The notes under the pieces: generated by a model
What the model was told of the DNA's origin: nothing
What the model saw: the letters and a program-made list of their open reading frames with translations, nothing else
The model's database searches: none
Translations under genes and position numbers: made by a program
Assembly: GCF_014203395.1 (NCBI RefSeq)
Contig: NZ_JACHIW010000001.1
Span: 4,819,501-4,883,500 of the forward strand
Reading direction: 5' to 3'
DNA from: Saccharopolyspora phatthalungensis
GTDB lineage: Bacteria > Actinomycetota > Actinomycetes > Mycobacteriales > Pseudonocardiaceae
Length of the DNA: 64,000 nt
In this document: in pieces, positions 31,283-48,398 of the stretch
Position numbering within the stretch: the first letter of the stretch is position 1
Layout of the letters: each line of letters begins with the position of its first letter

Positions 31283-32920
31283 CTACCTGGCGGGCGCCAG
31301 GGTTCGGTCGTCGTGGGACAGGGTTGCGTGGGGCGCGGCCTTTCGGTCGATCTCGTACTGCCATTGCAGGGTCGCCTTGGTACTCGCGTGCAGCCGGTCG
31401 CGGCACGCGGGGTCCAGCTGGTCCCAGGTGGTGCCGAGGGGGATGGCGCGGCAGATGTCGATGACGTTGTTCTGCTGGTAGTTGTCCGGGACGATCCAGA
31501 GGTTCTCGCCTTCGACGAAGGCGTGGTCGAGCGAGGCGCGGGACAGGGTCACGAGCTGTTCATTGGTGAGGCTTTGGGTGGCGATGGCGAACTGGTACTC
31601 GCTGGCCAGGGTGCTGTTGGTGATGCCGGGGTCGTCCGAGGACAACGTTACGGGCACCCGGTCGGCCATGTCGTTGAGCCAGCGTTGCAACGGATGGTCA
31701 CGGCCGGTGACGCGAAGAATTCCGTCGTTGCTGCTCAACGGTACTTCGACGAGGATATGTCTCTCGCGCATCGTGGCGGCCAGGCCTTCCGGGTCGGCTT
31801 CGGAGAAGAAATCGACGCCGTGGCCGATGCGTTTGACCCCCGCCTCCACCGCTGCGCGGACGTGGAAGGACAACGGGTCCTCCGGGGGCGGGTCCTGCCG
31901 CATGTACCGCTGGACTTGGTTGAGGCGGTAGACGAGTTCGCCGGCGTGAAGGCTGAATTTGGCGTTGAGCAGTTTGTTGGTCAGGAATCCGACCATGGCC
32001 ATGTGCAGGCGGTAGTCCCTCAGCGCGGTCGGGTCGTCCTCGGGTTGGACGAGGTTGACGCCAACCACCTTGGTACTGGCGTCGCTGGCCAGGAGGACGC
32101 CGAGGATGAGTTGGGCGAACACCAACTTCGGCGTGTCGGTGCGCCGGGCCTGGAAGTCGAAGCGGATCACCACGCGGCATGCCGGGGTGGGATTGGCCTC
32201 GTTGCAGTTGAGGTGATTCGGGCTACGGTAGCCGACATACTTGCTCTGGTATTCGGCGGCGGCTGCGTCGACGATACCGGTGAACCCGTCGGCCTGGGTG
32301 AGTTGGTCGTAGAACTCGCCGAGGTTGTCCGGGTTGGGGTCCGGCAGGGGCGTGTTGGCGACGAAGCGCCGAAGTTGACTGGACTGGGCGCCCAGCAGGG
32401 TTTCGATGTAACTGACATGTTCAATGGCGGCGGTGCGGGCGACCTCGGCGAGGATGTCCTGGTCGCGGCCGGCGATGGCCGCGTCGTAGCGGCCGAACGT
32501 GCCGAAGAAGTGGTCGTGGCCGGGGTTGGGATCGCCGTCGGGCGGGAACTGGAAGTCTCGCATGGACCACTGCCGCAGGAGATTAGGCCGGTCCTGCCCG
32601 GTGATCGGGCGGGTGGCTCCGGGACACTGGTCATCCACCCGGTTTCGGGCGGTCCAGGTCGCCTCATCGAGGCAAAGTCCGTCCATGATCGCCCAGGTGA
32701 TGATCGTGTTTGTGTTCACCGCTCCGTGCAGGTGGTGATGAATGTCCCCGCCCAAGGGCTGCATGGCCCGTGCCGTGGGCGGCTGGTCGTGGGCCACGGC
32801 CGGGGCGGTGGGAGCGAGCAGGGGGAACAGCGTGGCGGCGACCACGACCGCGCGGCCCGCTCGCCCGAGGCGATGCCGCCGAGGCCCTCCCTGCGTCGTC
32901 TCCGATCGTCGGGTTCGCAT
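31283..32920 (-). CDS. Secreted adenosine deaminase-like enzyme
   Basis: 545 residues from ATG 32920 (GTG 32929 in frame is possible; neither has a good ribosome site). A Sec signal peptide with an RR-rich start ends near APAVAHDQ. The metal-dependent deaminase motifs are complete: DIHHHLHGAVN (first two His), LHAGELVYR, GVKRIGHGVDFF and VTLSSDDPGITN, matching the ADA/ADGF family. It is longer than cytosolic ADA (about 340 aa) because of insertions around residues 80-220. An extracellular enzyme scavenging nucleosides is the likely role; secreted ADA-like proteins are known in actinomycetes. The C-terminal ending is polar. Confidence 0.85.
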   Translation of the reverse strand: MRTRRSETTQGGPRRHRLGRAGRAVVVAATLFPLLAPTAPAVAHDQPPTARAMQPLGGDIHHHLHGAVNTNTIITWAIMDGLCLDEATWTARNRVDDQCPGATRPITGQDRPNLLRQWSMRDFQFPPDGDPNPGHDHFFGTFGRYDAAIAGRDQDILAEVARTAAIEHVSYIETLLGAQSSQLRRFVANTPLPDPNPDNLGEFYDQLTQADGFTGIVDAAAAEYQSKYVGYRSPNHLNCNEANPTPACRVVIRFDFQARRTDTPKLVFAQLILGVLLASDASTKVVGVNLVQPEDDPTALRDYRLHMAMVGFLTNKLLNAKFSLHAGELVYRLNQVQRYMRQDPPPEDPLSFHVRAAVEAGVKRIGHGVDFFSEADPEGLAATMRERHILVEVPLSSNDGILRVTGRDHPLQRWLNDMADRVPVTLSSDDPGITNSTLASEYQFAIATQSLTNEQLVTLSRASLDHAFVEGENLWIVPDNYQQNNVIDICRAIPLGTTWDQLDPACRDRLHASTKATLQWQYEIDRKAAPHATLSHDDRTLAPAR

Positions 32921-33401
32921 AGCGGTCACGGGTCTGCGCCAGCGACCACAACGGGATTCCAGTCGCCTGGGCTGGAGCCGGGCATTGGCACTCCTGTCCT
33001 CTGCCGACTGCTGAGAGTTACGTGGAGATCAGAATGGTAGCCAACAACAATTCGAATTGAATTCACAGATTGTGGTTGGCTTGGGAATCGGCCTACGGTG
33101 TGTGACCTCCATACCGTTGCTTCCCAACACGCGAGTGACGCCTGTCTGAGGGGCGTGGTGGTCGGGGTGGCGCCCGGCTGCCTCGTCCGGGATGGTGCCA
33201 CCACCTTTCCGGGCGCCGACGCTAACGCCACGAGACGTCCACCGGTATGCCTTGGTCCCCCGTCCTGGTAGGGACGCACCCAGATCGGCCACGTCCTCGC
33301 CACTGCGCAGCGCGACTCGGCAGTGTCACGCGATCGTCCGGGATCCAGCGGCCGGAACCTGATCGAGGGAAACGGGAAATAGCCGATCGGCTGTCAGACC
33401 A

Positions 33402-33593
33402 TCAGGGGCGGACCTGTTTGCGGAGATCATCGTGCAGCGTGGCGACGTTGACGTAGACGTCCGGAAAACCGGTGGCACACCAAGCCGCTCCCCGTAACGC
33501 CATCAGCGTCGTCCCTGCGATCAACGGCGCCCCGAATACCTAGGACACTTTCCTGCCCTTGCACGCCGACGGAGCACAACATCGCGCAGGTCG
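33402..33593 (-). pseudogene. C-terminal remnant of a trypsin-like serine protease
   Basis: On the minus strand, CAMLCSVGVQGQESVLGIRG corresponds to the MLCAG..GQDSCQGDSGG block around the catalytic Ser, with the Ser-containing GDSGG degraded. After a frameshift, GAPLIAGTTLMALRGAAWCA continues as TGFPDVYVNVATLHDDLRKQ, matching the PLxxxG..VSWG.GCA..G.PGVYxxV end of chymotrypsin-fold proteases. A stop follows at 33402-33404. The N-terminal His and Asp blocks were not found. It is a dead fragment; the other bases in 32921-33854 hold no gene that I can support. Confidence 0.6.
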
Positions 33594-33854
33594 AACGCGA
33601 TCCCGGTGTTGTAGGCATTCGCACTCCGACAACCGGCTTTATGCACACCGCTCGCCAAACGATCAGGGTGACAACCGTTCGAGTGCTTCTTGTTGACCAT
33701 GGACACGCGAGGTCGACAAACTCTTGGTAAGAACTTATGAAACGACCTTACGAAAACTTCAGATGCCGCACATTCGCTAGTAGCCGCAATGTGTGGCCAC
33801 TTGCCCAAAGTATCCCGGCAGAGCCTTACGTCTCATCACGGATTAGGAGTCGAT

Positions 33855-35282
33855 ATGCCCGTCTCTACCCGAAGTCTTTCTCCTTTGCAGGAGAAAATTA
33901 TGCGGGAAAATTTCGCCTATTCAGAACCATTCTTTCGCGGTCGGGACCTTCATCCCATGCTCGACTGCGGGAATTCTCCCGAGCTTGCCCTGGCTCCGGT
34001 TCGCGAGCGGAATGTGCCTATCGTAGATCGGCCGCTCTATATTCCATTCAACGCAAAACTTCGCCAAGAATTTTTCGGCGGTATCCTGTACGACTGCGAC
34101 GGACACCGGCATTTCATGGTCGACTCGACCGCATACGAATTGCTTAAGTCCGCTCTCACGCCCGGGCTAACGCCACAGCAACTCCTATCCGTGTCCCGAG
34201 TGGGGTCCGATGGCGAATCCACCATCGCTGCACTGATCCGCAACAACCTACTCAGTGTGTCACCTGCTAACACGGTTGTCCGGCACTTTCCCGTTCGAAA
34301 CATAGATCTTGAGTATTTGCAGAGTCCGGTCCTTGCCGAAATCGAAGTCACCTATGGATGTTTCCGTGCGTGCCGGCACTGTGCCTATGAATCCTCACCC
34401 ACTGCTCGCTTGTCGAACGAGTTGACGGCAGAACAATGGTCGACGGTGTTCAAGAAACTAGCCGCAGCGGGCGTCCTTATCGTGCAGCTTACGGGCGGCG
34501 ACCCGCTATTCCGAGATGACTCGTTTGACATCGTGGATGCCGCAGACGACGCGGGTCTTAGCGTGTACGTGCGTAGCGACACTGTCGCTCTCGATGGGGC
34601 CAGCCTCAACCGGATCAGATCCCTTCGTCATCTTTGGCACGTCGGTACCAGCCTCGACGGCGCCGATGCCGTCGCCCACGACTGGATGCGGGGCCGGGGC
34701 GCTTTTGAAACATTTAAGGAGCGTGTCAGGGTACTGGCGTCCGAGGGCATCGCGGTATCAGTTGGAGCCACTCTGCACAAGAACAACTATGAGACGGTCC
34801 GGCAAATGGGTCGACTATCGATGGAACTCGGAGCGCGGTGGTTCGATATTGGTTTCCTTTCTCCGGTTGGACGCGGTGCCGACCTGGGGAATCTTGTGCT
34901 TGATCGCCACGAGATTATTTCCAGCCTAGATTCATACTTGGCGGGTGTGCGGGAAGGCGACTACATTCCTTCTCATGCACACTACCTGCACCGGGCGCAG
35001 GAGAAAGAACCCTTCGACGATCTCATTGAAATCATTGACAAGCTCCCGTATGTGACCGAGTGGCCCTTTAGCAGACTGCGTTTGGATCCCATGGGATCGT
35101 CGTATACCGCTGGAAAGCTCAAGGGCTCTGACTATGCGGGCGGGTACAACGCGCTCACGGAGCCTATCGAACATATCTGGGACCACAGCCCGAATCTCCG
35201 ACAGCTTCGCGAGATTGCCGATGGTCGACGTATCCACAGTTTGGATTATCGCTTGCTCCGTTCAAATCATGAGTTCATCTAG
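33855..35282 (+). CDS. Radical SAM enzyme with PqqD-like N-terminal domain
   Basis: 475 residues from ATG 33855 (AGGAG, 5 bases); an in-frame ATG 66 bases upstream lacks a site. Residues about 65-145 look like a PqqD/RRE peptide-recognition domain (AKLRQEFFGGILYDCDGHRH, then TAYELL and IAALIRNNLL). The radical SAM core follows: IEVTYGCFRACRHCAYES gives the CxxxCxxC [4Fe-4S] site, and LIVQLTGGDPLF the GGE-like SAM contact. The C-terminal part has a SPASM-like layout (SRLRLDPMGSSYTAGKLKG, GGYNALTEPIEHIWDHSPNL) but not one Cys after the core motif, so no auxiliary cluster. RiPP maturase relatives are known to act on peptides; the substrate here is unknown. G+C and codon use are lower than neighbours. 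Confidence 0.85.
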   Translation: MPVSTRSLSPLQEKIMRENFAYSEPFFRGRDLHPMLDCGNSPELALAPVRERNVPIVDRPLYIPFNAKLRQEFFGGILYDCDGHRHFMVDSTAYELLKSALTPGLTPQQLLSVSRVGSDGESTIAALIRNNLLSVSPANTVVRHFPVRNIDLEYLQSPVLAEIEVTYGCFRACRHCAYESSPTARLSNELTAEQWSTVFKKLAAAGVLIVQLTGGDPLFRDDSFDIVDAADDAGLSVYVRSDTVALDGASLNRIRSLRHLWHVGTSLDGADAVAHDWMRGRGAFETFKERVRVLASEGIAVSVGATLHKNNYETVRQMGRLSMELGARWFDIGFLSPVGRGADLGNLVLDRHEIISSLDSYLAGVREGDYIPSHAHYLHRAQEKEPFDDLIEIIDKLPYVTEWPFSRLRLDPMGSSYTAGKLKGSDYAGGYNALTEPIEHIWDHSPNLRQLREIADGRRIHSLDYRLLRSNHEFI

Positions 35283-35352
35283 CTAAGAAGCAGCGCGGTT
35301 TTAGGAATCTGGACCGTTCGCGTTCCCGGATGCAACTTACTTGGAGGATTAG

Positions 35353-36099
35353 GTGTCGGAGAGCTTTGAGTTTCCGGGCAAGTATTATGAAATCATCCGC
35401 CGAGACTATCGCAATTTGGAAGAAGAGACTCAGTTTCTCGCATCATACCTTCCAGACGATGGCCACGTGTTGGACCTTGGTTGCGGCACGGGCACCAACC
35501 TGAGGGCACTACGAGGGCTGGGGAAAAAGTACACCCTGCTAGGCGTTGATCAGAGCCAAAGTTTTATCGATTATGCTAATTCCGCGGGTAACAACAACAT
35601 ACGGTACGTTCGCGGCAAACTCGATGAATATGAGACAAATGATCAATTCAATCTCATCTACAGTCTTTTCGTGAGACTGAACTATCTGCGGCATGACCAA
35701 ATGCGCGCCGTGCTGAATAAGGTTAGCTCCTGGCTGCGACCGGACGGAATCTTCGTTGTTGATGTCAGCTATCTGCTCCAGTTTGTGGAGAACTATCAGC
35801 CCTATATTACTGCCCATCATAAAGACGATAGAATTCTTATTACCCGCTTCATTCGCCATTCGCTGAACGCGCACGAGGGGAATTGGCGCCACGAGGAAAC
35901 GATGCTCGTACGCGAACAAGACGGCCAGCTATCGATGTACGAAAATTTCTTTGATCAGACGGTGATCACTGCTCCTGAATTGCGGCGCATGCTGCAGGAG
36001 GCAGGGCTTAAGGTTGTCGAGACGTTCCGGAACTTCCGTAAAGATCCCCCATTTAGAGGCGGGCAAGGTTCGCTAATCTTCGTCGCCTCCAAGGCTTGA
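35353..36099 (+). CDS. Class I SAM-dependent methyltransferase, paired with the radical SAM enzyme
   Basis: 248 residues from GTG 35353 with GGAGG at 5-base spacing, 70 bases after the radical SAM stop, so probably one operon. Motif I is HVLDLGCGTGTNLRALRGLG (about residues 37-56), motif II YTLLGVDQSQSFIDYAN, motif IV FNLIYSLFVRLNYL, and GIFVVDVSYLLQF follows. The substrate class cannot be deduced; peptide N-, C- or O-methylation would suit a RiPP partner. Two hand-counted 60-base lines (35581-35700) contain 28 and 25 G+C, that is about 44%, against 42 of 60 in the NmrA-like gene. This is a strong sign of recent transfer. Confidence 0.88.
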   Translation: MSESFEFPGKYYEIIRRDYRNLEEETQFLASYLPDDGHVLDLGCGTGTNLRALRGLGKKYTLLGVDQSQSFIDYANSAGNNNIRYVRGKLDEYETNDQFNLIYSLFVRLNYLRHDQMRAVLNKVSSWLRPDGIFVVDVSYLLQFVENYQPYITAHHKDDRILITRFIRHSLNAHEGNWRHEETMLVREQDGQLSMYENFFDQTVITAPELRRMLQEAGLKVVETFRNFRKDPPFRGGQGSLIFVASKA

Positions 36100-36103
36100 C
36101 GGG

Positions 36104-36283
36104 ATTCGGGATCTAGGGCGAGGGGCGTATGAGTACCGTCGTGTGATCAATAAGCTGGTGGCGCGGCATACGGAGCCGGTCTTGCCGATCTCGTGGTTCT
36201 CCAAGCATGTTGCCACCTGGGATCGGGTCCGTTGCCGCGACAGTAGTCGGCGGTCAGCGCCGAAAGCTTTTGCTGAGAGAGAC
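36104..36283 (+). other. Unassigned coding-like stretch after the methyltransferase
   Basis: From 36104 one plus-strand frame reads RGAYEYRRVINKLVARHTEP and VLPISWFSKHVATWDRVRCR before running into the antisense of the fibre-like gene. It has protein-like composition but no start codon or ribosome site. It may be a gene remnant; I do not recognise it. Confidence 0.2.
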
Positions 36284-37750
36284 GGCAGTGGGTGTTGAGT
36301 CCTTGGTCTTGACCGGGACCAGTTTGGACGAACCGAGGGGATACCAGAAGAACTGGTAGGACGCGGCAGGATGCTCGCTGTCGTAGGAGAATGAGAGGGT
36401 GAATGCGCTGTCGGAGGCGATCGGCAGCAGAACTGAGTTGTCCTCGCACCAGAAACGCCACTCATCGTTGAAACTGTGGTGGTCAGGGCTTGTCGGGCGG
36501 GCCGCTGTGGCACATCGAGTGTGACCGGCGTATTCGATGCCAACTTGGCCGAAGCTTAGGTCGTCGAGGTCGGTGGTCCAGACCTCGGCGAGGACCAAAC
36601 CTCCGGTCGAACTCTGGTATGTACCGATGTCAAGCTGGGTCGGGGTGTAGCCGAGGATGTCCGCGAGCTGGCTGACCAGCAGTCGGCCGTTGGACGTCAG
36701 GTCCCCTTCGGCGTCGAGCGTTCCAGACACCTTGAGGTCCTTCTTGGCGACGGCGTTTTCCTCGATGACAAGCCCGCCCGTGATGCTCGTGTCGCCGTTG
36801 ACCGCCACCCCGTTCTGCCCACTGGTGGTCAGCTTGTCCTGTTGGGCTCCGGCTTGCTTGACGGTGAGATCGCCTTGGGCGTAGGTGAGGCCGGTGATCG
36901 TGAGCGGTCCCTCGATGAGCACTGGCGCGGTCACCCGGATCGGCTTGTCGCTGGTGATCGTGGGGGAGTCGGTGAACGTCAGTTGGCTGGTGGTGATCGC
37001 GGTGGTCTCTAGTATCGGCTTCGTCACGGTGACCGAGGTGGCCAGGTAGTGCTCGATGGTGTTGCCGCTGGCCGTGAGGCTTGCCTTGAGATAAAACGTG
37101 GTGTCTCGGGACAGCGGAAGCGGTTTGTCCGGCCAGGAGCGCACGTTCGTGACGTCGATCGGGTCGTTGTTGTCGTACAACAGCGTGTAGCCGGCGCCCT
37201 CCGATGCTGACCAGCTCAATGTGATCCCGTCACCTGGATTGATGCTGGCGTGCCCAGATCCATCCAAAGTGGATGGATGGAAGTCCCCGAAGTAGAAGCC
37301 GTGTGGGTATTTTCCGATGTAGAAGGTGGTCTTGGCGCGTCCGGAGTCCGTTCGTTCCTCGACAGTGAGAACGGTGACCCCGACCTGGGCGTTCACGTTG
37401 ATGTCGGTGAAGCTGAATGCGTAACCTGTGGTGTCGAGGTTTGGGGGCCGCTGCTGATTGGGGACGGCTATGAATGCCGTGCCGCTCAGGCTCACGTCCC
37501 ATCCCGCCGGGGAGACTTGGGGGTGGACGCCGTCTAGGTGCTCGGTGAGGTCCGCGGCGTCGGGGCCTACGCTGAAATTGAACGTCAGGCTTTGGCAGGT
37601 GATCGGTTTGCCCGTGTTGTTGGACACCAGGACGGTGATTGTCGAGGGTGTCGGGGAGAATTTGGCCGGTGTGACCTGTAGGGGGGCGGGTGTGGTGTCG
37701 ATCGAGTAGTCGAGCACGCAGCTGGGGTCGCGGACTTGGCGAACGAACAT
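36254..37750 (-). CDS. Fibre-like protein, last gene of the DUF6603 operon
   Basis: 498 residues from ATG 37750, preceded by AAGGAG; an ATG 15 bases earlier overlaps the upstream stop (ATGA) but has no site of its own. The N-terminal part (about 1-230) is made of Ig/beta-sandwich-like modules (TVLVSNNTGKPITCQSLTFN; TLSWSASEGAGYTLLYDNND). Residues about 260-360 are short repeated strands (PVLIEGPLTITGL, DLTVKQAGAQQDKL, TSITGGLVIEENAV, DLKVSGTLDAEGDLTSNGRL) resembling the beta-spiral stalk of phage tail fibres. A C-terminal beta domain follows. No signal peptide is present. A fibre or adhesin-like tip role is inference from architecture only. Confidence 0.75.
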   Translation of the reverse strand: MFVRQVRDPSCVLDYSIDTTPAPLQVTPAKFSPTPSTITVLVSNNTGKPITCQSLTFNFSVGPDAADLTEHLDGVHPQVSPAGWDVSLSGTAFIAVPNQQRPPNLDTTGYAFSFTDINVNAQVGVTVLTVEERTDSGRAKTTFYIGKYPHGFYFGDFHPSTLDGSGHASINPGDGITLSWSASEGAGYTLLYDNNDPIDVTNVRSWPDKPLPLSRDTTFYLKASLTASGNTIEHYLATSVTVTKPILETTAITTSQLTFTDSPTITSDKPIRVTAPVLIEGPLTITGLTYAQGDLTVKQAGAQQDKLTTSGQNGVAVNGDTSITGGLVIEENAVAKKDLKVSGTLDAEGDLTSNGRLLVSQLADILGYTPTQLDIGTYQSSTGGLVLAEVWTTDLDDLSFGQVGIEYAGHTRCATAARPTSPDHHSFNDEWRFWCEDNSVLLPIASDSAFTLSFSYDSEHPAASYQFFWYPLGSSKLVPVKTKDSTPTAVSLSKSFRR

Positions 37751-37761
37751 GGATGTCTCCT

Positions 37762-40700
37762 TCATGGCGTCGAAGGCGTGGGGCGCGTGCCGCCAGAGCG
37801 TCGTAGCCAGCCGGTGCGGAGGATCGGTGGGGCGGTCGGCACGTGCGCAATCGGTGAGGCGGCAGCGAGCGGCAGGGTTTCCCCGCCATGACCCATGTCA
37901 GTCCAGGTCCAGTCTCCGTGCCGGGTCGAGGGGCGTGGTAGAACCAGCCGCCGGTCCTGCTCCTGCGCACCAAGCATCGCGACCTGGGACAGCAGCGGTC
38001 CCATCCGCAAGGCGATCTCCATTCGGGACAGTGGGACGTCAATGAATCCGCTGGGCAACCGCAGCACCGACACCGGCAGGACGTCCGTGGTCGCGTGTAC
38101 CGCGGCTCGGGGATCGATCAGCATCGTGAGGTGGGCTGAATCCGGTGTCCCAGCCACCGTGAGCGGAAACCCCGCGCCGATCGGCTCGATGTATGGGTCG
38201 GACACGCTGGCGGCGTGCACGGCGAGGAACCGGGAACCGTCCGCTTCTGTCTGGTAGCCGATCAGGCCGTCGTCGAGGTTGTACACCGATCCCAGCCGCA
38301 CCCACCACGGATAGCTCACAAAGGGAGGCAGCGGCTGGTTGTCCTTCAGTCCCACAACGTACTGCCACTGTTCCCAACTTGGGTCCAACAACGGTGGTCC
38401 GTCCAGTTCCAGTCGCAGGCGGGCCCGGACTAGGGCCAGCGGCCGACCGGCCAGCACGGTCATGGTCGAGTCGTCCCAGTTGCCGAGTGGGTTGACCGAC
38501 CACAGTGTCTCGTCGATCGTTTTCAGCAAAGCGGAGAACGAGGCTGGCCCGGCATCGCGGAGACCAGCGAGAAAATCCGCCAGGTGCCGAAAGTCGTGGC
38601 ACAGAGACGCGATGTCCGGGTACTGGCCCCCAGGTGCCGGGTCCCACCAGACTTCGGGCTGGTTGTTGGAGCCGTACACGACCCGCATCTCCCCGAGTGC
38701 CTCTCCCGTTGGCGCATACGCCGAGAGCCCTTGGTCAAGATGGTTCGGCAGCAGCCATCCGCATACCGGATTGCCTCCGATGTCCAATGCGAGCACGTGG
38801 TCGTCGTCGAGTGCGGATACGTGGTCGAATCGAAGCCGGGCGCTTTGGACCAGTCGCGGGCGCAGCTCGACGAATCGGTATGGAGCCTTTGCCAGCACCG
38901 TCTGGCCGGGTCGGGTCGAGTCCGGACACGCGATTGGCTTGCGGTCGCTGTCCTGCGGGCTGCCTGTTCCGTCCGGGTTGATGACGTCGCAGACCTGGCC
39001 GAACACGTCGATCACGTGTAGTCGGGTGAAGGCGAACTGCCCGCTTCGGGTCTGCTGGAAGTGCGACTGTGGCCAGGACGACCCCTTGGGTGGATCACCG
39101 GGGATCGGGAACGTCCGGTGCTGATCGCCGATCAGAGTGGCCAGCGAGGTCGGTTCGTTGCGCTCGTCGTATGGGTGGCCGGCCACGCTGGGGTCGCGCC
39201 GCGTCATCTGCAGGGTCAGGCCATCCAGTGCCTGGCTGAGCAAGTCCCATCGGGCGACTTGGCGTTCCAGTTCCTTCAGGCTGTCGGTCGGTGTGTCGGG
39301 ATGGGTCGCGATGTACCTGCGGATCTGCGCTGCCAGGGTGAAGGTGGCGTTGGAAGTAAGGTGAATTCGTCCACTGTAGATCTCGTATGCGGGGGCGTCG
39401 CCGGTTCCTGTTCCCTGCCAATGGTACCGGGTGCCGTCGAACGTCCAGTTGGTCTGGTGCTCATTCTGGTAGGGGATGGGGAAGAAATTCAGTTCGTACA
39501 TCAGATACAGCGGGGACCATGGTTGTGTCCATGGCGTGGCGCCGAACTGCGGCAGCGTGCCGACCGCCTTGGCTTTTGGATCGGCCACGACCTTGGTCAG
39601 GGTGCCGGCGGTGAACGCCTGATCGAGCAGCCACAGTTCGGCGACCAGTGCGCGAACTGCGGCGGCTGTGGGGAGCTTGTCGACCGGTGGAGTTGGTGGC
39701 GTCGGCGGGGCGGAAATGAGTCCGTTGCCCAGGTCGATTTGGGTCAGCAGCGAGCCGGGAAGCCGGCAGGTGAGCGGGCCGTTCGTATCATCGCGTGCCG
39801 GTCCCTTGAGACCGCACAGCAACGTTACCGGGTCATTGGCGCGGTGGAATTCACCCAGCGGGACGCGTTTGAGTTCGCGATGTGCGATGTCGATCCCGTG
39901 GTCCTTGAGGTAGGCGTCGGCCGCCTGCGCCAGTTCCTCTGGAGTCGCGCCCCACGGGATATGTTCTGGGTGGTTGGAACTGCTGGACCGCCGTGCGGCG
40001 ATGTCGGCGAAGCGTTGTCTCACTCCTGCCGCCAACCCGGACTTGGCCGGGTCGAGCGCGGCGGCGAACGGATCCGCGAAGATGTCCGGAAGCGTTGGGC
40101 TGTTGTTCAGCCACCACACGCCGTAAAGTTTCCACTGTGCGTCAAATAGCTCCCGAACAGCGGCGTCGTGGTGGCCCTGCGCGGTGTTTAGTGTGGACAG
40201 TAGTCGTTCTTCGGCGTCCCGCTCGGCCTTCGTGAGTGGCGGAGGAGGCGGAGGGTCCCGGTCTTCCGCATTGGAGGTCCGGTCCACAATCTCCCAGACG
40301 TGACCGCCGTCGGTCGCACCGAACCACGCGCGATGGATGGACTGGTCCACCGATTCTGTTCCGGCGTCGTCCAGGTCGTCGAGCAGGCCGTAGTGCAGGG
40401 CCTCCAGAAGTGCGGCGTCCAGGGGGTCGGCCTTCTTCGACAGCAGCAGCCCGGTAAGCGCGTCAGCCGCGTTGTTGCCGACCGCGACGCCGACTGACTC
40501 GCCATCTGGCCGCTGTGATACCGGAACGCTGCCGGTCCGCTGCCAGTGCACGCCGATTGAGTACCCCGAGTAGAGGGTGGTGGCTGGGGGTGTGGTGTCC
40601 GTGCTGCCCGCCACCTGCCAGCTCAGCTTGGCAAGGCTGTCCACTTGAGTGCTCGGGTCGTGCTTGGCCGCCGAGTACCAACCGACCACTAGGTAGCTGA

Positions 40701-41319
40701 GCGTGCCATCGTCGGCGACACCGGTCAGGTCGTCGTGAATGGATAGCACGTCCTCGTTGTATGGCTGGTAGGCGGAAAAGGTGAGGAGCCCGGGACCGAT
40801 CGCGGTGAGGTAAGGGGGGAGGTCCGCAGTCTCTCCCGTCCAGTCGGCGGCAGCCACTCGTCGTCCGATGTGGACGTTCTCCTGCGTATGGGGCCTGACG
40901 TAGGGGGTGGTTCCGCCCTTGTTACCTTGTGGGGGAAGCCAGTCACTTTCGACCACCCACGCCGTCACTGTTCGGGGGTGCGGCTCGCCTGAGTAGCGCA
41001 CCACCAGCCACCGGTTTGGAACCAGTGGAAAGGTGGTGTCGCCCTTGGCGGTGTCGTGGTGGCCCTGACGAAAGGCACTGGGCAGATGCCAGTGCAAATA
41101 CACGCCATTGGCCTCGGGGCAGTTGCGCCAGTCGGCTGCGGTGTTGTCGTCGAAGGGCCGCGGCTCGGGTGAGAGGCCGAGCGGAAGATTGGCGAAGTTG
41201 GCCTTCCAGCGTTGGAACGCTACCTTGTCGCGCACCTCGTCGTTGACGACCAGGGCCTCCACCTCGATCGGAACTATCAGTGGATTGGGGGCGGTGTTCG
41301 TGGGTGGGTTCCCGCTCAT
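37762..41319 (-). CDS. Giant protein of unknown function (1185 aa)
   Basis: ATG 41319 has AGGAGG four bases upstream and follows the 756-aa gene by 8 bases. No signal peptide or transmembrane segment. The N-terminal 200 residues carry GVYLHWHLPSAFRQG, FPLVPNRWLVVRYSGEPHPR and AWVVESDWLPPQG, a pattern I have seen only in uncharacterised large proteins. The middle region is mixed helix and strand with a Trp-rich stretch (AQWKLYGVWWLNNSPTLPDI). The C-terminal third is beta-rich with FVELRPRLVQSARLRFDHVS and PWWVRLGSVYNLDDGLIGYQ. No catalytic motif is visible. The 3' end is next to the start of the fibre-like gene. It probably forms part of one assembly with its operon partners. Confidence 0.75.
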   Translation of the reverse strand: MSGNPPTNTAPNPLIVPIEVEALVVNDEVRDKVAFQRWKANFANLPLGLSPEPRPFDDNTAADWRNCPEANGVYLHWHLPSAFRQGHHDTAKGDTTFPLVPNRWLVVRYSGEPHPRTVTAWVVESDWLPPQGNKGGTTPYVRPHTQENVHIGRRVAAADWTGETADLPPYLTAIGPGLLTFSAYQPYNEDVLSIHDDLTGVADDGTLSYLVVGWYSAAKHDPSTQVDSLAKLSWQVAGSTDTTPPATTLYSGYSIGVHWQRTGSVPVSQRPDGESVGVAVGNNAADALTGLLLSKKADPLDAALLEALHYGLLDDLDDAGTESVDQSIHRAWFGATDGGHVWEIVDRTSNAEDRDPPPPPPLTKAERDAEERLLSTLNTAQGHHDAAVRELFDAQWKLYGVWWLNNSPTLPDIFADPFAAALDPAKSGLAAGVRQRFADIAARRSSSSNHPEHIPWGATPEELAQAADAYLKDHGIDIAHRELKRVPLGEFHRANDPVTLLCGLKGPARDDTNGPLTCRLPGSLLTQIDLGNGLISAPPTPPTPPVDKLPTAAAVRALVAELWLLDQAFTAGTLTKVVADPKAKAVGTLPQFGATPWTQPWSPLYLMYELNFFPIPYQNEHQTNWTFDGTRYHWQGTGTGDAPAYEIYSGRIHLTSNATFTLAAQIRRYIATHPDTPTDSLKELERQVARWDLLSQALDGLTLQMTRRDPSVAGHPYDERNEPTSLATLIGDQHRTFPIPGDPPKGSSWPQSHFQQTRSGQFAFTRLHVIDVFGQVCDVINPDGTGSPQDSDRKPIACPDSTRPGQTVLAKAPYRFVELRPRLVQSARLRFDHVSALDDDHVLALDIGGNPVCGWLLPNHLDQGLSAYAPTGEALGEMRVVYGSNNQPEVWWDPAPGGQYPDIASLCHDFRHLADFLAGLRDAGPASFSALLKTIDETLWSVNPLGNWDDSTMTVLAGRPLALVRARLRLELDGPPLLDPSWEQWQYVVGLKDNQPLPPFVSYPWWVRLGSVYNLDDGLIGYQTEADGSRFLAVHAASVSDPYIEPIGAGFPLTVAGTPDSAHLTMLIDPRAAVHATTDVLPVSVLRLPSGFIDVPLSRMEIALRMGPLLSQVAMLGAQEQDRRLVLPRPSTRHGDWTWTDMGHGGETLPLAAASPIAHVPTAPPILRTGWLRRSGGTRPTPSTP

Positions 41320-41327
41320 CAAGCCTC

Positions 41328-43598
41328 CTAATGACGACGGAAGGTCATCTGTTGGGGCGCGGCGACCAGTTGGACGGCCAGACCGGCAGGGGTGAGGCCG
41401 TCCGGCTGGGAGTGGGCACCGAGTTTGGCAGGGATGTCCGCAAGTAGCTGGCTCACGTCGAGCACTCGCTGGCCGCCTCGAAGGTAATCGGAGGTGAATC
41501 CGGTCAGGTAGACCTCGTCGAGCGGGTGACCGATGTCGTTTCTCAGGTCGCGAAGGTGGACGTGTGGGCCGTGCTTCGCGTCGATCTCATATCCGAAATG
41601 CAGACCCTGGGCGGGCTCGGCGACGGTCAATTCGTCCAGCACGCCGTCTACCAGGATCAGCGCAACGTCCGGCGCCAGCGTGTCCGCTCGCAACACCGCC
41701 AGCTCGCCGCGTTTCCCGTTCTTTTCCGTGCCACTGACATGGACGCGCAAGGCAGGCCAACTCGGCACCAGCGCCGACCGGATGACCACTCCCGACATCG
41801 TGGCCGGGATAGAGGTGATTACCTGGTGCAGCAACGTGTTTAGGGCAGCGTCCAGGGAACCGGCGACTCCGATGCTGAGCGCGCCGAATACCAGCGCGGT
41901 CTGCCAGCCACGATCGACGTGGAAGAATCGCAACGACTCCGTGGGTAGCAGATGATCACGGGGAACTAGGTGATCGAAGGGGACCGGGTACAACAGCGCG
42001 AGGCGGTCCAACCAGTCCAACACCGGGTCGGCCTGGGGCTTAGTGGCCGACGACACGGACTGTTGCACCAAAGGATCCTTCTCCCATGCGTCGCGCAGGA
42101 CGGCCATGGCGGACAATGAGTCCTGGTCGACACCAGCTGGCGGGCGTTCGAGAGTTGCACTGGACAACGCCTTGGTCAGGGTCGCTGCGAAGTCTTGCCG
42201 GACGCGTTTTTCAAAGCGGTCCCGTACGGGACGATGGCCCAGTGCCGTCACCGCGGACAAGCCCTGGAAGGCGATCCCCGCGCCGGCCTGACTGCCATGG
42301 CTCGGCCTGGCCGTTGCCGACAGCAGCCGGCCAAGGTGCCGGCACGCCGCCTTGCGCCATGCCATGAGTGCGGGAGCGAAACCGGGATCGGCCAACGCCA
42401 GCGACCGACCCATGGTCCATGCGGTGGCGTAGCTGGCGTCGAACAGGCCGTACCGCTCCAGGTACACCAGCCAGGCATCCGAGGTGAGGACCGCCTCCGG
42501 CGCGGTCGGGGTGGGCACCGGCTGGGCCGGTGTGGCCGTGAGCGGGCCTCGATACCAGGCGAATGTCCGTTCGCCGGAGCCGAGTTGGTAGGTCAGCGGA
42601 ACGTAGCCAGCTGTCAGCCTGTCTTTGACCTCGCCGGACGCGCCGGTCGGGTCCAGCCGCAGGGTGAGCCGATCCGGATCGGTCTGCGCCGCACCGTCCG
42701 GTTCGGCGAGATGCTCCATCAACACGCCGAAGTGCGAACCGGTGTCCGGTAGCGACCGGAATGTCCACGAATGCAGCGCGACCATGCGCAACGGCAGGGT
42801 GCTTTTCTTTTCCCGGGTGAGGTAGGGCCGGAAGCCTTCCAGGCTGACCAGGTGCGCCGCGAACTGCCCACCGCCTTCATCGGGGAACCGGTTGCCGATG
42901 ACCACTGCGTGCAGGCCGGCGTAGCGGGGATCGTCGCCGTCGGCGAACCCTTTGAGGCTGACCGTGCGTGGCACACCGCGCAGCGATCGTGCGCGGGCGC
43001 GAGCCGCCAAGGTCGCTAGTGATGCGGTCTCGTCCCCGCTGCGCCGTAGGTGGGTCAGCAGACCCAGTTCGTCGTACTTAGGCGCGATCTGGTCGAAAAG
43101 CTCGCCCGGCACATCCAGCGTGCGGCAGACGCTGTCCAACAGATCGGGCTCGATGTCAGCGAGTTCCGGCGCGATCGCCTCATTACTGGGTGTTTGCCGC
43201 AGTCCCCGGACGGTGCGGGAGTCGGTAACGCCGACCGCTTCGGGGTCGCCGGGCAATTCCTTGGCAGCGAACAGGAGCAGCGCGAGCCATGGCCGCTTGG
43301 CGTCCGCCGGAGACTCGCTGATCGTGCTCTCCCAGGGCAGGGCGGGCCGGTCGAGTGTGATGTGGGGGAGGATCTGGTCGAACTTTCCAGTGCAGCCGGC
43401 CGTCGGGTAGACCGCATGGACAGCTTTCTCGGGAAGACCGAACCGGGGCGCTCGGACATCCAGGGTGCGCACGACCGGAGTGTCGAAGTACCCGGTGTCA
43501 TCCACACTCAGCTCGTGCTTGGTGGTGATCGTGTAGAGACCCACTTTGAGGTTCGGGATCAGTGTGTCGTGAAACTCGTATTCGACGCCCTCGCTCAT
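41328..43598 (-). CDS. Large protein of unknown function (756 aa)
   Basis: ATG 43598 overlaps the preceding stop codon (ATGA) and has GGAGGTG at 7-base spacing. It opens with a beta-rich region (YEFHDTLIPNLKVGLYTITT, then YFDTPVVRTLDVRAPRFGLP) reminiscent of phage baseplate or tail proteins. A long mixed section contains LKGFADGDDPRYAGLHAVVI and VPLTYQLGSGERTFAWYRGP. A helical region with an Ala-rich core precedes a C-terminal part containing LHFGYEIDAKHGPHVHLRDL. No signal peptide, lipobox or enzyme motif was found. It is always read with its two large neighbours because of the overlaps. The function is unknown. Confidence 0.75.
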   Translation of the reverse strand: MSEGVEYEFHDTLIPNLKVGLYTITTKHELSVDDTGYFDTPVVRTLDVRAPRFGLPEKAVHAVYPTAGCTGKFDQILPHITLDRPALPWESTISESPADAKRPWLALLLFAAKELPGDPEAVGVTDSRTVRGLRQTPSNEAIAPELADIEPDLLDSVCRTLDVPGELFDQIAPKYDELGLLTHLRRSGDETASLATLAARARARSLRGVPRTVSLKGFADGDDPRYAGLHAVVIGNRFPDEGGGQFAAHLVSLEGFRPYLTREKKSTLPLRMVALHSWTFRSLPDTGSHFGVLMEHLAEPDGAAQTDPDRLTLRLDPTGASGEVKDRLTAGYVPLTYQLGSGERTFAWYRGPLTATPAQPVPTPTAPEAVLTSDAWLVYLERYGLFDASYATAWTMGRSLALADPGFAPALMAWRKAACRHLGRLLSATARPSHGSQAGAGIAFQGLSAVTALGHRPVRDRFEKRVRQDFAATLTKALSSATLERPPAGVDQDSLSAMAVLRDAWEKDPLVQQSVSSATKPQADPVLDWLDRLALLYPVPFDHLVPRDHLLPTESLRFFHVDRGWQTALVFGALSIGVAGSLDAALNTLLHQVITSIPATMSGVVIRSALVPSWPALRVHVSGTEKNGKRGELAVLRADTLAPDVALILVDGVLDELTVAEPAQGLHFGYEIDAKHGPHVHLRDLRNDIGHPLDEVYLTGFTSDYLRGGQRVLDVSQLLADIPAKLGAHSQPDGLTPAGLAVQLVAAPQQMTFRRH

Positions 43599-46500
43599 CG
43601 AGGTTCACCTCCGGCGGGAACCAGCAGGGGCTGGGCGGCCAGGCTGTGACCGGCACTGGCCGCGTATCCGGGCAGCGGATCGTCGGGCACGTCGTACCCC
43701 AGGCTTTGCAGTTGGTTGTGCAGTGCGGCACGCTGTCCTGTCGGTCCGGGGGCGGCGATCCCGGTGGCGATGAGCTGGATGGTGTTGGTCGTGGCCGTTG
43801 GTTTCGGGCCGACCGGGGTGGCCGTGCCGTTGTAGGGCATCGGCCCGTCCGGCAACGGGTCGGCGTTGAGGTTGCCGGCCCCGGTTGTGAGCGTGCCCGA
43901 GAAATCTGGTGCTGGGACGGTCACCCGCAGGCCAATGAGCTGCTTGGGCACCAGGCCACCGTCTGGGTCGTTCAGATCCGGCGCATCTTTACCCCACAGG
44001 GCTTTCGGTGTGTTGCCCAGAATGGGTGCGATGATCCACCGGTCGACATCGACGGCCGGGCCGTCCTGGTGAGTCACCGTGACGGCATGCGTCGACGTGG
44101 CATCGGTGTCCATCGCACGGATCGGCAGGGTTCCCTTGGTCGACTGAACCGGTTTTCCGCAGAAGACAAGTGACATCGCCGGGACGGCGGTGGCCGTGGT
44201 GAACGTGAAGCCATGCGTCGACACCACCCACGTCTCCGCTTCGTCGGCCCCGGGAAAGCCGGTCTCGGCTGGGCCGGTGCCGGATGACGAGGGTTTTGGC
44301 GTGGGCGTGAGCCCCTCGGTCGGTGTCATTTGCACTGCCTGCTCCTTGGGCGGCAGCTGCGCTTGGAACTGCGTCCAGGAACAGGGTGGGAGATCGTCGG
44401 GCCGGGGCTCACCGAAGCCGATCGTGAACGATACGAACTCCAGGTGCAGGGTGGCGTTGCCACCAAACGGCGGCCCCCAGAGTTCAACGTCAACGCCGAG
44501 CTCGACGTTGATCGTCACGTGCACGAACCAGACCTTAATGGTGTAGGACACGCCGAACGACACGCCGACGGAGATGTCGTAGGAGAACGGCGCCCACTGG
44601 ATGAGCGTGTCCAGATGGACGGTTGCCCAGGCCGAGAGCGAACCACTACGGAACTGCACAGCGAGCGCCCCGCCAAACATGAGGCCGTGCGGCGCGATCG
44701 TCAGGTAGCCCGCGGCGGTGAGGTTCGTCTGCTCGTCGATGTCGGCAACCACCGAGATCCGTGGCACGCTCGGATACCACCCGGGTTTGACGAACGCTGG
44801 GTGGTATCCACCGACGCAGATCACGAAGTCGCCCTGATGCGGGCTCGGGTCGACCCACATGCACAGGGCGATACCCCCGGTCGGCTTGTAGTTGGTGAAA
44901 TAGACGAAGGAGTTCCTGGTGAACTGCGCGGCCAGTGAGAGCAAGCCCTCGCTGTGCCGGTAGAGCGCCTCCGCCGCAATCTCGAGGTGAGCGGTCAGCG
45001 TCTCGCCCGGTGTTCTGGTCTTGGGGAAGTCGAACCGTCCGAGCCCAAGCAGTGTGATCACCAGATCGGTGCCGAACTCCACCACTGCCAGCGCCCGGAA
45101 TTCGGCGAATTCAAAGGTGGTCCAGTGCAGGCCGGCGGCGAACCAGTTCTCGCCGGCCTGGTCCGTGACCCACGGCGGAGCCTGCGTTCGCAGCACGTCC
45201 AACAACTGGATCGGGTCGGGGTTCTCGCCGATGATGCTCGGATCGTCCAGCCCAGCCACGAACGGACACGTGCTGATCTCGGCGACCGTGCCGATGCGCA
45301 TCGCGGTGTTGAGGCCGCCGCCGAGATAGACCTGCTTGACCCGAAACGCTGTTGGCCCGAACCCCTCCTTGCCGCTGCCTACACCGATGCTTCCGAAGAG
45401 AAAAAACGACGTCGTGCCGTCGTTCTTTCGCGCGTAGGACCCGACGAAGGCCAGGCTGATCGCCGGCGCACTGAGCATGCCGAGACCATCCAGTCGTACT
45501 GGATATGTCTTGTCTTGCCGGAGTAGCAGGACGGCCTTGATGGTGACTGAGGCGAGCGTCTCGCTGATACCGAACCCATCAATCCGGACGCCGTCGACCA
45601 CTCCGCTGTTAAGCGGGACTGCGACGGTGAATCTGGAAATCTCGACGGTAAAGCCGTGAATGGCGGCAATGATATTAGTGAAGATCTGGAGACAGCCCTT
45701 GGCGTAGCCAAGGCTGATGCCGTCGAGCCGGATCGGTCCGTGAGACTCGGGCTTGGACTGCTGTTCTGTCTGCGCGGAGGGGTTCTGGTCGTCCTCGGCG
45801 ACCTGGCTGGAGGCCGAGCCGAGCTGGATCTTGAGCGCATCCCTGGCGACGCCGCCGAACTTGTAGCCCAGTGTCGCGGTCACCCCGGCCGCGAGTGGTC
45901 CAGGGGGTAGCGTAGGCAGCGTTTTGCCGCCGGCTCCGATCGCCGCGTTGATGTCGACGACGTCCTGATTTGTCAGCGAGTCCTTGGCGAACACCAACGC
46001 CGCCTGCGTCATAACAACGTCGTGCTCCTTCGGAATCCAACTGCTGAGCACTGGCAAGCCTGACAGGGCCAGGTCGAGGCTGGCTTCGATCACCCCTGCG
46101 AAGGAGGGCCCCTTGTCCTGCCCGCGCCGGCCGACAAGTACCCAACGAACGTTGTTGGTAGTGGTCAGCTTGACCGTGCCGGAGAACAGCAAACACCTGG
46201 CCTTCGTGTCGTATCGAAACCACAGGTCTGTCAGGCTGACGTCGAGGTCTTTGAGCAGCGCGAAGCCCATCGTGCTGGCGACCTGATACAACGAGGTGTC
46301 CTTGGTCGCTCCGCTACACGCGCTGAGCGACGCGGAACCGTCCAGCGGCGCTTCGAACGGGGTGTTGTCGAGAGCACAGGTGAACAGCGCCCGCCCGGTG
46401 TCGCCCTGCCCGGTCAGTGCGATTCCCGGCTGTGTGAACCCGAAATGTGTCGACAGATCGCCGTAGTCAGCGGACACCGTGACGGTCGCGAAGGCCCACG

Positions 46501-46882
46501 TGCTCAGGCTGATCGTGACGGTGTACCCCGACACCGATTCGCCAGCGCCGTCGGCGGTGAACGTGACCGAGACCGTCGCGCTCGCCGGCGACTTCAGCGT
46601 GATGTTCCCGCTGACCGTGAGCCGCGCCGAGTCCGTGACGGCCTTGCTCACCGTGAGCGTTCCGTCCGTCAGATGTGCGCCGAACAACTCCGCAGATCGG
46701 CCGACGCCGAGCTTGTCACCCGAAAGCGAGAACGTCTTCCCGGAACTGGCCGCTAGCAGATTCTTCAGCTCACTCACCGCGAGTGGCACCGCGCTCCTCC
46801 GTACGTTGGAAACCGCGGCCGTTGTAGGTCGCGGTTGCGTTTTCGTTCCGCTGGCGGTTTGATTCGCGGCCGCTAAGCACAT
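43595..46882 (-). CDS. DUF6603-like giant beta-rich protein, first gene of the operon
   Basis: 1095 residues; start at ATG 46882 is tentative, since no strong ribosome site is visible and a start about 35 codons downstream (before VSELKNLLAASSGKTF) is possible. The C-terminal half has the repeating pattern I associate with DUF6603: GGLNTAMRIGTVAEISTCPF, QAGENWFAAGLHWTTFEFAE, ALAVVEFGTDLVITLLGLGR, FVICVGGYHPAFVKPGWYPS and GVSFGVSYTIKVWFVHVTIN. These amphipathic strands suggest a large beta-structure. The N-terminal half has repeated 40-50-residue beta units (LTVSGNITLKSPASATVSVT). Known DUF6603 proteins in bacteria and fungi have no assigned role. It leads a four-gene unit with overlaps or gaps below 15 bases. 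Confidence 0.72.
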   Translation of the reverse strand: MCLAAANQTASGTKTQPRPTTAAVSNVRRSAVPLAVSELKNLLAASSGKTFSLSGDKLGVGRSAELFGAHLTDGTLTVSKAVTDSARLTVSGNITLKSPASATVSVTFTADGAGESVSGYTVTISLSTWAFATVTVSADYGDLSTHFGFTQPGIALTGQGDTGRALFTCALDNTPFEAPLDGSASLSACSGATKDTSLYQVASTMGFALLKDLDVSLTDLWFRYDTKARCLLFSGTVKLTTTNNVRWVLVGRRGQDKGPSFAGVIEASLDLALSGLPVLSSWIPKEHDVVMTQAALVFAKDSLTNQDVVDINAAIGAGGKTLPTLPPGPLAAGVTATLGYKFGGVARDALKIQLGSASSQVAEDDQNPSAQTEQQSKPESHGPIRLDGISLGYAKGCLQIFTNIIAAIHGFTVEISRFTVAVPLNSGVVDGVRIDGFGISETLASVTIKAVLLLRQDKTYPVRLDGLGMLSAPAISLAFVGSYARKNDGTTSFFLFGSIGVGSGKEGFGPTAFRVKQVYLGGGLNTAMRIGTVAEISTCPFVAGLDDPSIIGENPDPIQLLDVLRTQAPPWVTDQAGENWFAAGLHWTTFEFAEFRALAVVEFGTDLVITLLGLGRFDFPKTRTPGETLTAHLEIAAEALYRHSEGLLSLAAQFTRNSFVYFTNYKPTGGIALCMWVDPSPHQGDFVICVGGYHPAFVKPGWYPSVPRISVVADIDEQTNLTAAGYLTIAPHGLMFGGALAVQFRSGSLSAWATVHLDTLIQWAPFSYDISVGVSFGVSYTIKVWFVHVTINVELGVDVELWGPPFGGNATLHLEFVSFTIGFGEPRPDDLPPCSWTQFQAQLPPKEQAVQMTPTEGLTPTPKPSSSGTGPAETGFPGADEAETWVVSTHGFTFTTATAVPAMSLVFCGKPVQSTKGTLPIRAMDTDATSTHAVTVTHQDGPAVDVDRWIIAPILGNTPKALWGKDAPDLNDPDGGLVPKQLIGLRVTVPAPDFSGTLTTGAGNLNADPLPDGPMPYNGTATPVGPKPTATTNTIQLIATGIAAPGPTGQRAALHNQLQSLGYDVPDDPLPGYAASAGHSLAAQPLLVPAGGEPR

Positions 46883-47626: not shown

Positions 47627-47852
47627 TCGGTTGACCTCGTTGTTGTTCGACAGAAGAACGGACTCGCGACGCACGAGCGCCGGGGGTCCGCGTGCCGAAC
47701 CGAGGGGGTGCCTTCTGCGCACCCGCCGTGCGATCAGCCCTCCACCGGATAGCCAATCTCTGCGTGGCGTAGCGCCGGTCCGGTGTTCACGGTGGGTGAC
47801 GCTACTTGATCTGGCTGGCTCCGACAAGATTTGCCGGCCGGACAAGCAGCAA

Positions 47853-47918
47853 CCCCGGAGCCGTTTCCTGCCGGTTTGTCCGTACAGGCCGAACCGGACA
47901 CAGTTCGGGGCTCCGGGG
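47853..47918. promoter_or_regulatory. Nested inverted repeats in a 770-base intergenic region
   Basis: CCCCGGAGCC (47853-47862) pairs exactly with GGCTCCGGGG (47909-47918); inside it CCGGTT (47871-47876) pairs with AACCGG (47892-47897). A two-tier hairpin like this may be a terminator, an attenuator or a structured RNA. The other bases in 47627-48398 contain no gene that I can support. Confidence 0.35.
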
Positions 47919-48398
47919 TCGGGTAGCTGCCTAGTATTCGCCGACCGCATGCCCGCGTCGAGTCACACAGGATCATCACACGTCGGGTCGGCTGGTGTGC
48001 CGAGGGCGGTCCTAGCGGACAGCCACCTCACAAGTCCTGTTGGTATTCAACGTTGGACCACCTCCTTTCCCGTGTATAGAGCAGGCTAGGGGACGGTGCG
48101 CCTATCTGGCTACTGATTTTTCGCCGTGAGACACGGCCGCGGCCGCCAGCGGTCGGCGCCGGCCGAGCCGGTCGACGGTCTTGCCCGTCGGCCCACAGCT
48201 AAAGCAGTCGCCCGGATACGGCCTCTTCGAGTGAAATGTGTGATTGCGCCGAAATGCGCGTAGTTGGCTATTCGGCGCGGGAAAGATCTTCGCGCGCGGC
48301 GGGCTTCATACTCTTCTGACACGCTTTTCCCAGCAATTCCTCAGCTTCACGGGCAAAGCTTCCGCCACACTCGTCTGGGCGTGAGGAGTCTGATTGCG

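Follow-up and report, generated by a model that had tools for sequence, protein, structure and literature searches.

A radical SAM enzyme and methyltransferase pair in Saccharopolyspora phatthalungensis, with a candidate enzyme-fused core peptide and a possible connection to leucyl-tRNA synthetase

The radical SAM enzyme, its methyltransferase partner and its N-terminal extension

A stretch of 64,000 nucleotides from the genome of Saccharopolyspora phatthalungensis (hereafter, the window) contains a gene for a radical S-adenosylmethionine (SAM) enzyme followed by a gene for a methyltransferase, and the features of this pair are listed in Table 1. The start codons are an ATG at 33855 and a GTG at 35353, respectively, each with a purine-rich ribosome site close upstream, and the G+C contents of the two genes are 55.7 and 50.3%, compared to 65.5% for the window.

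The enzyme matched the Pfam Radical_SAM family (E 6.6e-17), and the CxxxCxxC motif was found within the radical SAM barrel by Pfam, alignment and model, as in SPASM maturases. An earlier note, made from the sequence of the window, had described this motif as classic, with a PqqD-like N-terminal region before it, a cysteine-free SPASM-like tail after it and a methyltransferase gene next in line, and all of these are borne out. The motif reads CFRACRHC, and none of the 299 residues after it is a cysteine, so that cysteine ligands for auxiliary clusters are absent there. The predicted structure and fold alignment place the PqqD-like domain, a RiPP (ribosomally synthesized and post-translationally modified peptide) recognition element (RRE), at about residues 60-145, with a sequence-profile score below the cut-off. 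Overall, the enzyme is predicted to have a SkfB/SuiB-like fold with a leader-binding RRE. The methyltransferase matched Methyltransf_25 (Pfam, E 1.1e-17) and scored 45.6 bits against a cut-off of 175 with the NCBIfam daptide methyltransferase model; for neither protein was the NCBIfam cut-off reached by any of the 25 best models listed. With PADLOC, the radical SAM enzyme matched viperin weakly (E 2.9e-7) and the methyltransferase matched part of the Mad2 profile (positions 264-416 of 492, E 3.4e-18); an anti-phage role was considered and rejected.

Residues 1-58 of the enzyme precede the RRE and are not covered by the alignments with SkfB and SuiB. In the model this extension forms a helix (residues 10-19) and two strands (20-23 and 26-29), and the block means of model confidence (predicted local distance difference test, pLDDT) are 94 and 89 over residues 11-30, 72 for residues 31-40, 53 for 41-50 and 72 for 51-60. 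Conservation was evaluated in 17 rows, comprising 16 divergent relatives and the window enzyme. It was found that D31, H33, M35, L36, D37 and C38 are each kept in 17 of 17 rows, and that the octapeptide DLHPMLDC has a mean pairwise identity of 0.83, which ranks 9 among 467 eight-residue stretches, about equal to the conservation of the iron-sulfur motif. The corresponding values for the RRE are 0.43 (residues 60-90) and 0.19 (residues 91-145).

In the larger alignment, MLDC occurs within the first 80 residues in 50 of 62 rows. Three of the 12 rows without it (P0048, P0050 and P0054) start just before the RRE, as annotated in the proteins, and form a single clade (100/99 support) nested among relatives that bear the extension; the remainder belong to remoter branches. 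The conservation of the extension, together with its absence in a nested clade, is in keeping with a fused N-terminus that serves as a ribosomal peptide substrate. A conserved short motif between variable flanks, with reduced model confidence and adjoining an RRE, has the look of a fused core peptide, although a catalytic arm could also have this appearance.

Table 1. Features of the radical SAM enzyme and methyltransferase genes, in window coordinates
Feature	Position	Strand	Basis
Shine-Dalgarno-like AGGAG ahead of the radical SAM start	33845..33849	+	Read directly
Radical SAM enzyme, 475 aa: N-terminal extension, RRE-like domain, radical SAM barrel, SPASM-like tail	33855..35282	+	Open reading frame, Pfam, predicted structure, fold matches
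Leader-like helix and two short strands, residues 8-30	33876..33944	+	Predicted secondary structure; leader role putative
DLHPMLDC, proposed fused core peptide, residues 31-38	33945..33968	+	Conservation in 17 rows; substrate role putative
Variable linker, residues 39-59	33969..34031	+	Mean pairwise identity 0.12 in 17 rows
RRE (PqqD-like) domain, residues 60-145	34032..34289	+	Aligned with SkfB and SuiB N-termini; sequence profile weak
CFRACRHC, radical SAM cluster motif, residues 169-176	34359..34382	+	Three cysteines invariant in 62 rows
SPASM-like tail without cysteine, residues 401-475	35055..35279	+	Sequence, predicted structure, fold alignment
Class I SAM-dependent methyltransferase, 248 aa	35353..36099	+	Open reading frame, Pfam, NCBIfam profiles; relatives behind the radical SAM gene in L008 (65%) and L009 (50%)

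Related loci with a carboxypeptidase and a leucyl-tRNA synthetase

Relatives of the radical SAM enzyme are rare. At E <= 1e-20, 61 proteins were obtained, the window's own included, by scoring the 7995 candidates that shared most words; with the window genome counted each time, relatives were present in 1 of 394 genomes of the class, 1 of 397 of the order and 3 of 390 of the family. Two radical SAM loci were recovered in a scan of genome contigs. In Crossiella (locus L008) and in a Pseudonocardia metagenome-assembled genome (MAG; locus L009), the gene order is radical SAM enzyme, methyltransferase, M14 zinc carboxypeptidase and leucyl-tRNA synthetase (LeuRS). In Crossiella the LeuRS gene is convergent to the M14 gene at a distance of 53 bases; in the MAG the two genes share a strand, with 10 bases between them.

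The linkage between the radical SAM and M14 genes was evaluated from contig sizes rather than by reading the contigs, in a comparison that is blind to LeuRS. It was found that 19 of 77 M14 homologues, Crossiella among them, sit on longest contigs of exactly the same size as that of one of the 61 radical SAM homologues, whereas by chance (sizes jittered by up to 20%, 2000 trials) such matches numbered 0.3 on average and 4 at most. The same genus name occurs in five of the pairs (Crossiella, Kitasatospora, Streptacidiphilus, Streptomyces and Actinoplanes); one match, at 2963 bases, is probably a coincidence because it is too short for the radical SAM, methyltransferase and M14 genes. Of 18 aligned M14 rows, 14 matched Pfam M14 at E 0.01, and H161, E164, N220, R221, H252 and E333 are invariant in all 18; we take these to be the HxxE...H zinc ligands, the NR pair and the catalytic glutamate.

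Besides the cluster copy, Crossiella carries an ordinary LeuRS at another site in its genome, whereas in the MAG (95% complete) the cluster copy is the one LeuRS detected, and none lies beside the window pair. The MAG cluster is located downstream of AlgH/YqgE, the usual leuS place as in the two hosts compared. Nevertheless, the MAG LeuRS shares 64% identity with the cluster copy of Crossiella, compared to 41-42% with two host-type LeuRS, between which the identity is 74%. The two cluster enzymes have KMSKS where the two host enzymes examined have KMGKS. Crossiella-like LeuRS was found at E <= 1e-200 in 19 of 390 family genomes: nine, each bearing KMSKS, at identities of at least 64%, and a further 10 at 47-49% that did not match this pattern, so that KMSKS was dropped on recount as a mark of the whole set.

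Two of the family genomes, G715 and G1023, encode a LeuRS with 82% identity to the cluster copy of Crossiella. These KMSKS-type genes (loci L057 and L058) stand beside a P450 gene, an amidinotransferase-like protein recognised by eye and nonribosomal peptide synthetase genes, namely an AMP-binding/PP-binding protein in G715 (Pfam) and a similar sequence in G1023 (by eye); possibly, these loci are another cluster for a LeuRS inhibitor. That this LeuRS type occurs in two or more dissimilar biosynthetic contexts fits a self-resistance gene without proving it. As judged from the sequences, the added LeuRS of the fuller loci suggests self-resistance, and the M14 and LeuRS genes behind the radical SAM and methyltransferase genes suggest an antibiotic aimed at LeuRS.

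The Crossiella cluster (L008 6685-9643) adjoins genes for a TraG/TraD-like conjugation protein and a transposase-type helix-turn-helix protein, suggestive of a mobile element. Among plasmids, two Thermus thermophilus records were the sole radical SAM matches at E 1e-20 (L018 7857-10521 and L019 7857-10521); in these the related gene is followed by that for a major facilitator superfamily transporter, the other neighbours differ, and no PF00133 synthetase was found on either record, PF00579 having not been searched there. Viral and plasmid origins were both considered and rejected; no relative was encoded in 9 and 16 pattern-matched viral stretches. No structured RNA or T-box was found near the genes in window positions 33000-36400 at E 0.5, nor in loci L008, L009 and L028 at gathering scores.

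A possible fused substrate and its alternatives

The earlier note had reported no precursor peptide near the pair, and this held: small open reading frames upstream of and just behind the radical SAM gene were compared in the window, L008 and L009, as were those downstream in the window, and none was common; a separate precursor gene was not found in the compared stretches of the three loci. The note had read the pair as peptide-modifying, and the RRE-like domain, the peptide-maturase fold, the cysteine-free tail and the methyltransferase partner stand. It had left unconsidered the 58 residues ahead of the RRE as a fused leader and core, and the M14 and LeuRS genes of the fuller loci were not visible to it. 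Its suggestion that the substrate is encoded elsewhere or is not a peptide remains a live rival.

We tentatively propose that the two genes belong to a rare pathway, spread by horizontal transfer, whose product would be a leucine-mimicking, peptide-derived antibiotic against LeuRS, and that leader and core are fused to the radical SAM enzyme. The enzyme's own RRE would bind residues 8-30 as the leader, and a flexible linker would connect the RRE to the core, DLHPMLDC. With its single radical SAM cluster, the enzyme would modify the core at, or adjacent to, Leu36-Asp37-Cys38; the methyltransferase would cap the product, and a postulated peptidase would cut the core off the enzyme. In the complete loci, the peptide, once released, would be trimmed at its C-terminus by the M14 carboxypeptidase, and the producer would be protected by the linked LeuRS.

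A second type of relative may bear on the choice of target. The MAG encodes another radical SAM enzyme, at 32% identity, whose short contig also carries a gene for tryptophanyl-tRNA synthetase (TrpRS) in divergent orientation (TIGR00233, above cut-off). N-terminal motifs are LRAGWD in this protein and in P0057, IAWD in P0061, MMD in P0063 and AID in the Thermus protein; the model of P0061 has a mean pLDDT of 87.4, with residues 30-39, which cover IAWD, below 50. The match of residue to synthetase (Leu with LeuRS, Trp with TrpRS) is a lead only. It is possible, though less likely than not, that it reflects a coded family of synthetase inhibitors, in which the enzyme would be its own substrate and the core residue before Asp would name the target (MLD for LeuRS, GWD for TrpRS), with the prediction of methionyl-tRNA synthetase for MMD and isoleucyl-tRNA synthetase for AID. 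No further TrpRS-type loci were found in the family genomes beyond G1005.

Several observations weigh against the proposed explanation and its extension to TrpRS. An enzyme consumed for each product would be costly, and the block mean of 72 for residues 31-40 means that order is reduced there, not absent. The radical SAM gene of the MAG cluster holds one in-frame TGA. In the MAFFT alignment, the LRAGWD motif of P0057 falls at about residues 16-21 of the window enzyme rather than at MLDC, the pairing with MLDC having been made by eye; the TrpRS link is weak because duplicates are common, each of the three genomes searched giving 2 or 3 matches. No M14 relative was found in G715 or G1023. Nor was one found with two queries at E 0.001 in the window genome (8.54 Mb, 99.4% complete), where one LeuRS and no second was found; Crossiella and the MAG were matched with the second of the two queries. 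The window copy may therefore be incomplete, perhaps a remnant; alternatively, tolerance of the product may already exist in the host LeuRS.

The substrate reading could also fail while the rest stands, in that the extension would be a lid or catalytic arm, with C38 as a hydrogen donor or D31, H33 and C38 as metal ligands, acting on a peptide encoded elsewhere or on a small molecule. Such an arm, too, could show a conserved short motif between variable flanks, and we regard it as possible, if rather less than probable, given that the nested clade of three relatives lacks the extension (on the annotated starts), that DLHxMLDC is absent from the TrpRS-type relatives and that the enzyme has an RRE-like domain. 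The LeuRS and antibiotic reading would be unaffected.

Alternatively, LeuRS could supply leucyl-tRNA or leucyl-adenylate, with the radical SAM enzyme and methyltransferase acting on the leucyl group and the M14 enzyme freeing the product; pearlin pathways are a model for such a supply. Although LeuRS and M14 are direct neighbours, this is improbable: no tRNA-dependent ligase was recognised among the open reading frames listed around the cluster (no profile search was made), the close LeuRS relatives stand in an unlike setting with P450 and nonribosomal peptide synthetase genes, and the cluster LeuRS, as the only one detected in the MAG, must also serve the cell. It is quite improbable that LeuRS is a chance neighbour carried by recombination and unrelated to the product. 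Its adjacency was seen in just two loci, the MAG cluster occupies the normal leuS place, the window cluster lacks LeuRS, and seven of the nine genomes with the close LeuRS (64-82% identical, KMSKS) are without this radical SAM enzyme, with 10 more genomes having the remoter LeuRS. Nevertheless, LeuRS adjoins M14 in two loci of different orientation, and its type, at no less than 64% identity, is present in just 9 of 390 family genomes.

If the proposal of a fused core is true, a self-modifying radical SAM enzyme would be added to ribosomal peptide chemistry, the failure of precursor searches near such genes would be explained, and the enzyme's own N-terminus would provide a rule for finding synthetase inhibitors. 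If the substrate is not fused, the cluster with LeuRS still offers an easily tested lead towards an antibiotic and its target. Among the literature matches listed, no paper was recognised as describing a radical SAM, methyltransferase, M14 and LeuRS cluster.

Elsewhere in the window, four tandem large open reading frames (503, 1186, 756 and 1095 aa) occupy 36254-46882 on the minus strand. The sole solid match among them is of the 1095-aa frame to DUF6603 (Pfam, E 1.7e-113); the 503-aa frame has a very weak Pfam match, and the 1186-aa and 756-aa frames have none at the limits used. A 548-aa protein at 31283-32929 (minus strand) matches adenosine deaminase in its C-terminal part (residues 361-474) and, weakly, PADLOC CARF-ADA. 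The actinobacterial small RNA Ms_IGR-5 was found at 47844-48075 (minus strand, 100.6 bits).

Comparison with known systems

Agrocin 84, a leucyl-adenylate analogue conjugate, is an antibiotic that targets LeuRS, as described in the cited account (PMC7916415). It would have its target in common with the proposed product, whereas agrocin 84 is not a ribosomal peptide product.

With the peptide maturases SkfB and SuiB, which have the RRE, radical SAM and SPASM architecture, the window enzyme shares its predicted fold, including the N-terminal RRE alignment. It differs from them in that its tail lacks cysteine, no separate precursor open reading frame was found, and a further conserved N-terminal segment precedes the RRE. 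The match to MftC of the mycofactocin pathway is long (E 8.6e-28, residues 155-461 of 475), but at 97.5 bits it is below the cut-off of 265, and MftB weakly matches the RRE. The best NCBIfam match, the radical SAM/SPASM model TIGR04053, covers the radical SAM barrel (E 9e-31) with 107.4 bits against a cut-off of 395. For BlsE (cytosylglucuronate decarboxylase) and viperin, the aligned part begins at residue 155 or later, leaving the RRE and the N-terminal extension unmatched.

The idea of an enzyme that carries its own core is shared with the borosin methyltransferases such as OphMA. In OphMA-type borosins the core is C-terminal and the enzyme is a methyltransferase, whereas the putative core described here would be N-terminal and carried by a radical SAM enzyme.
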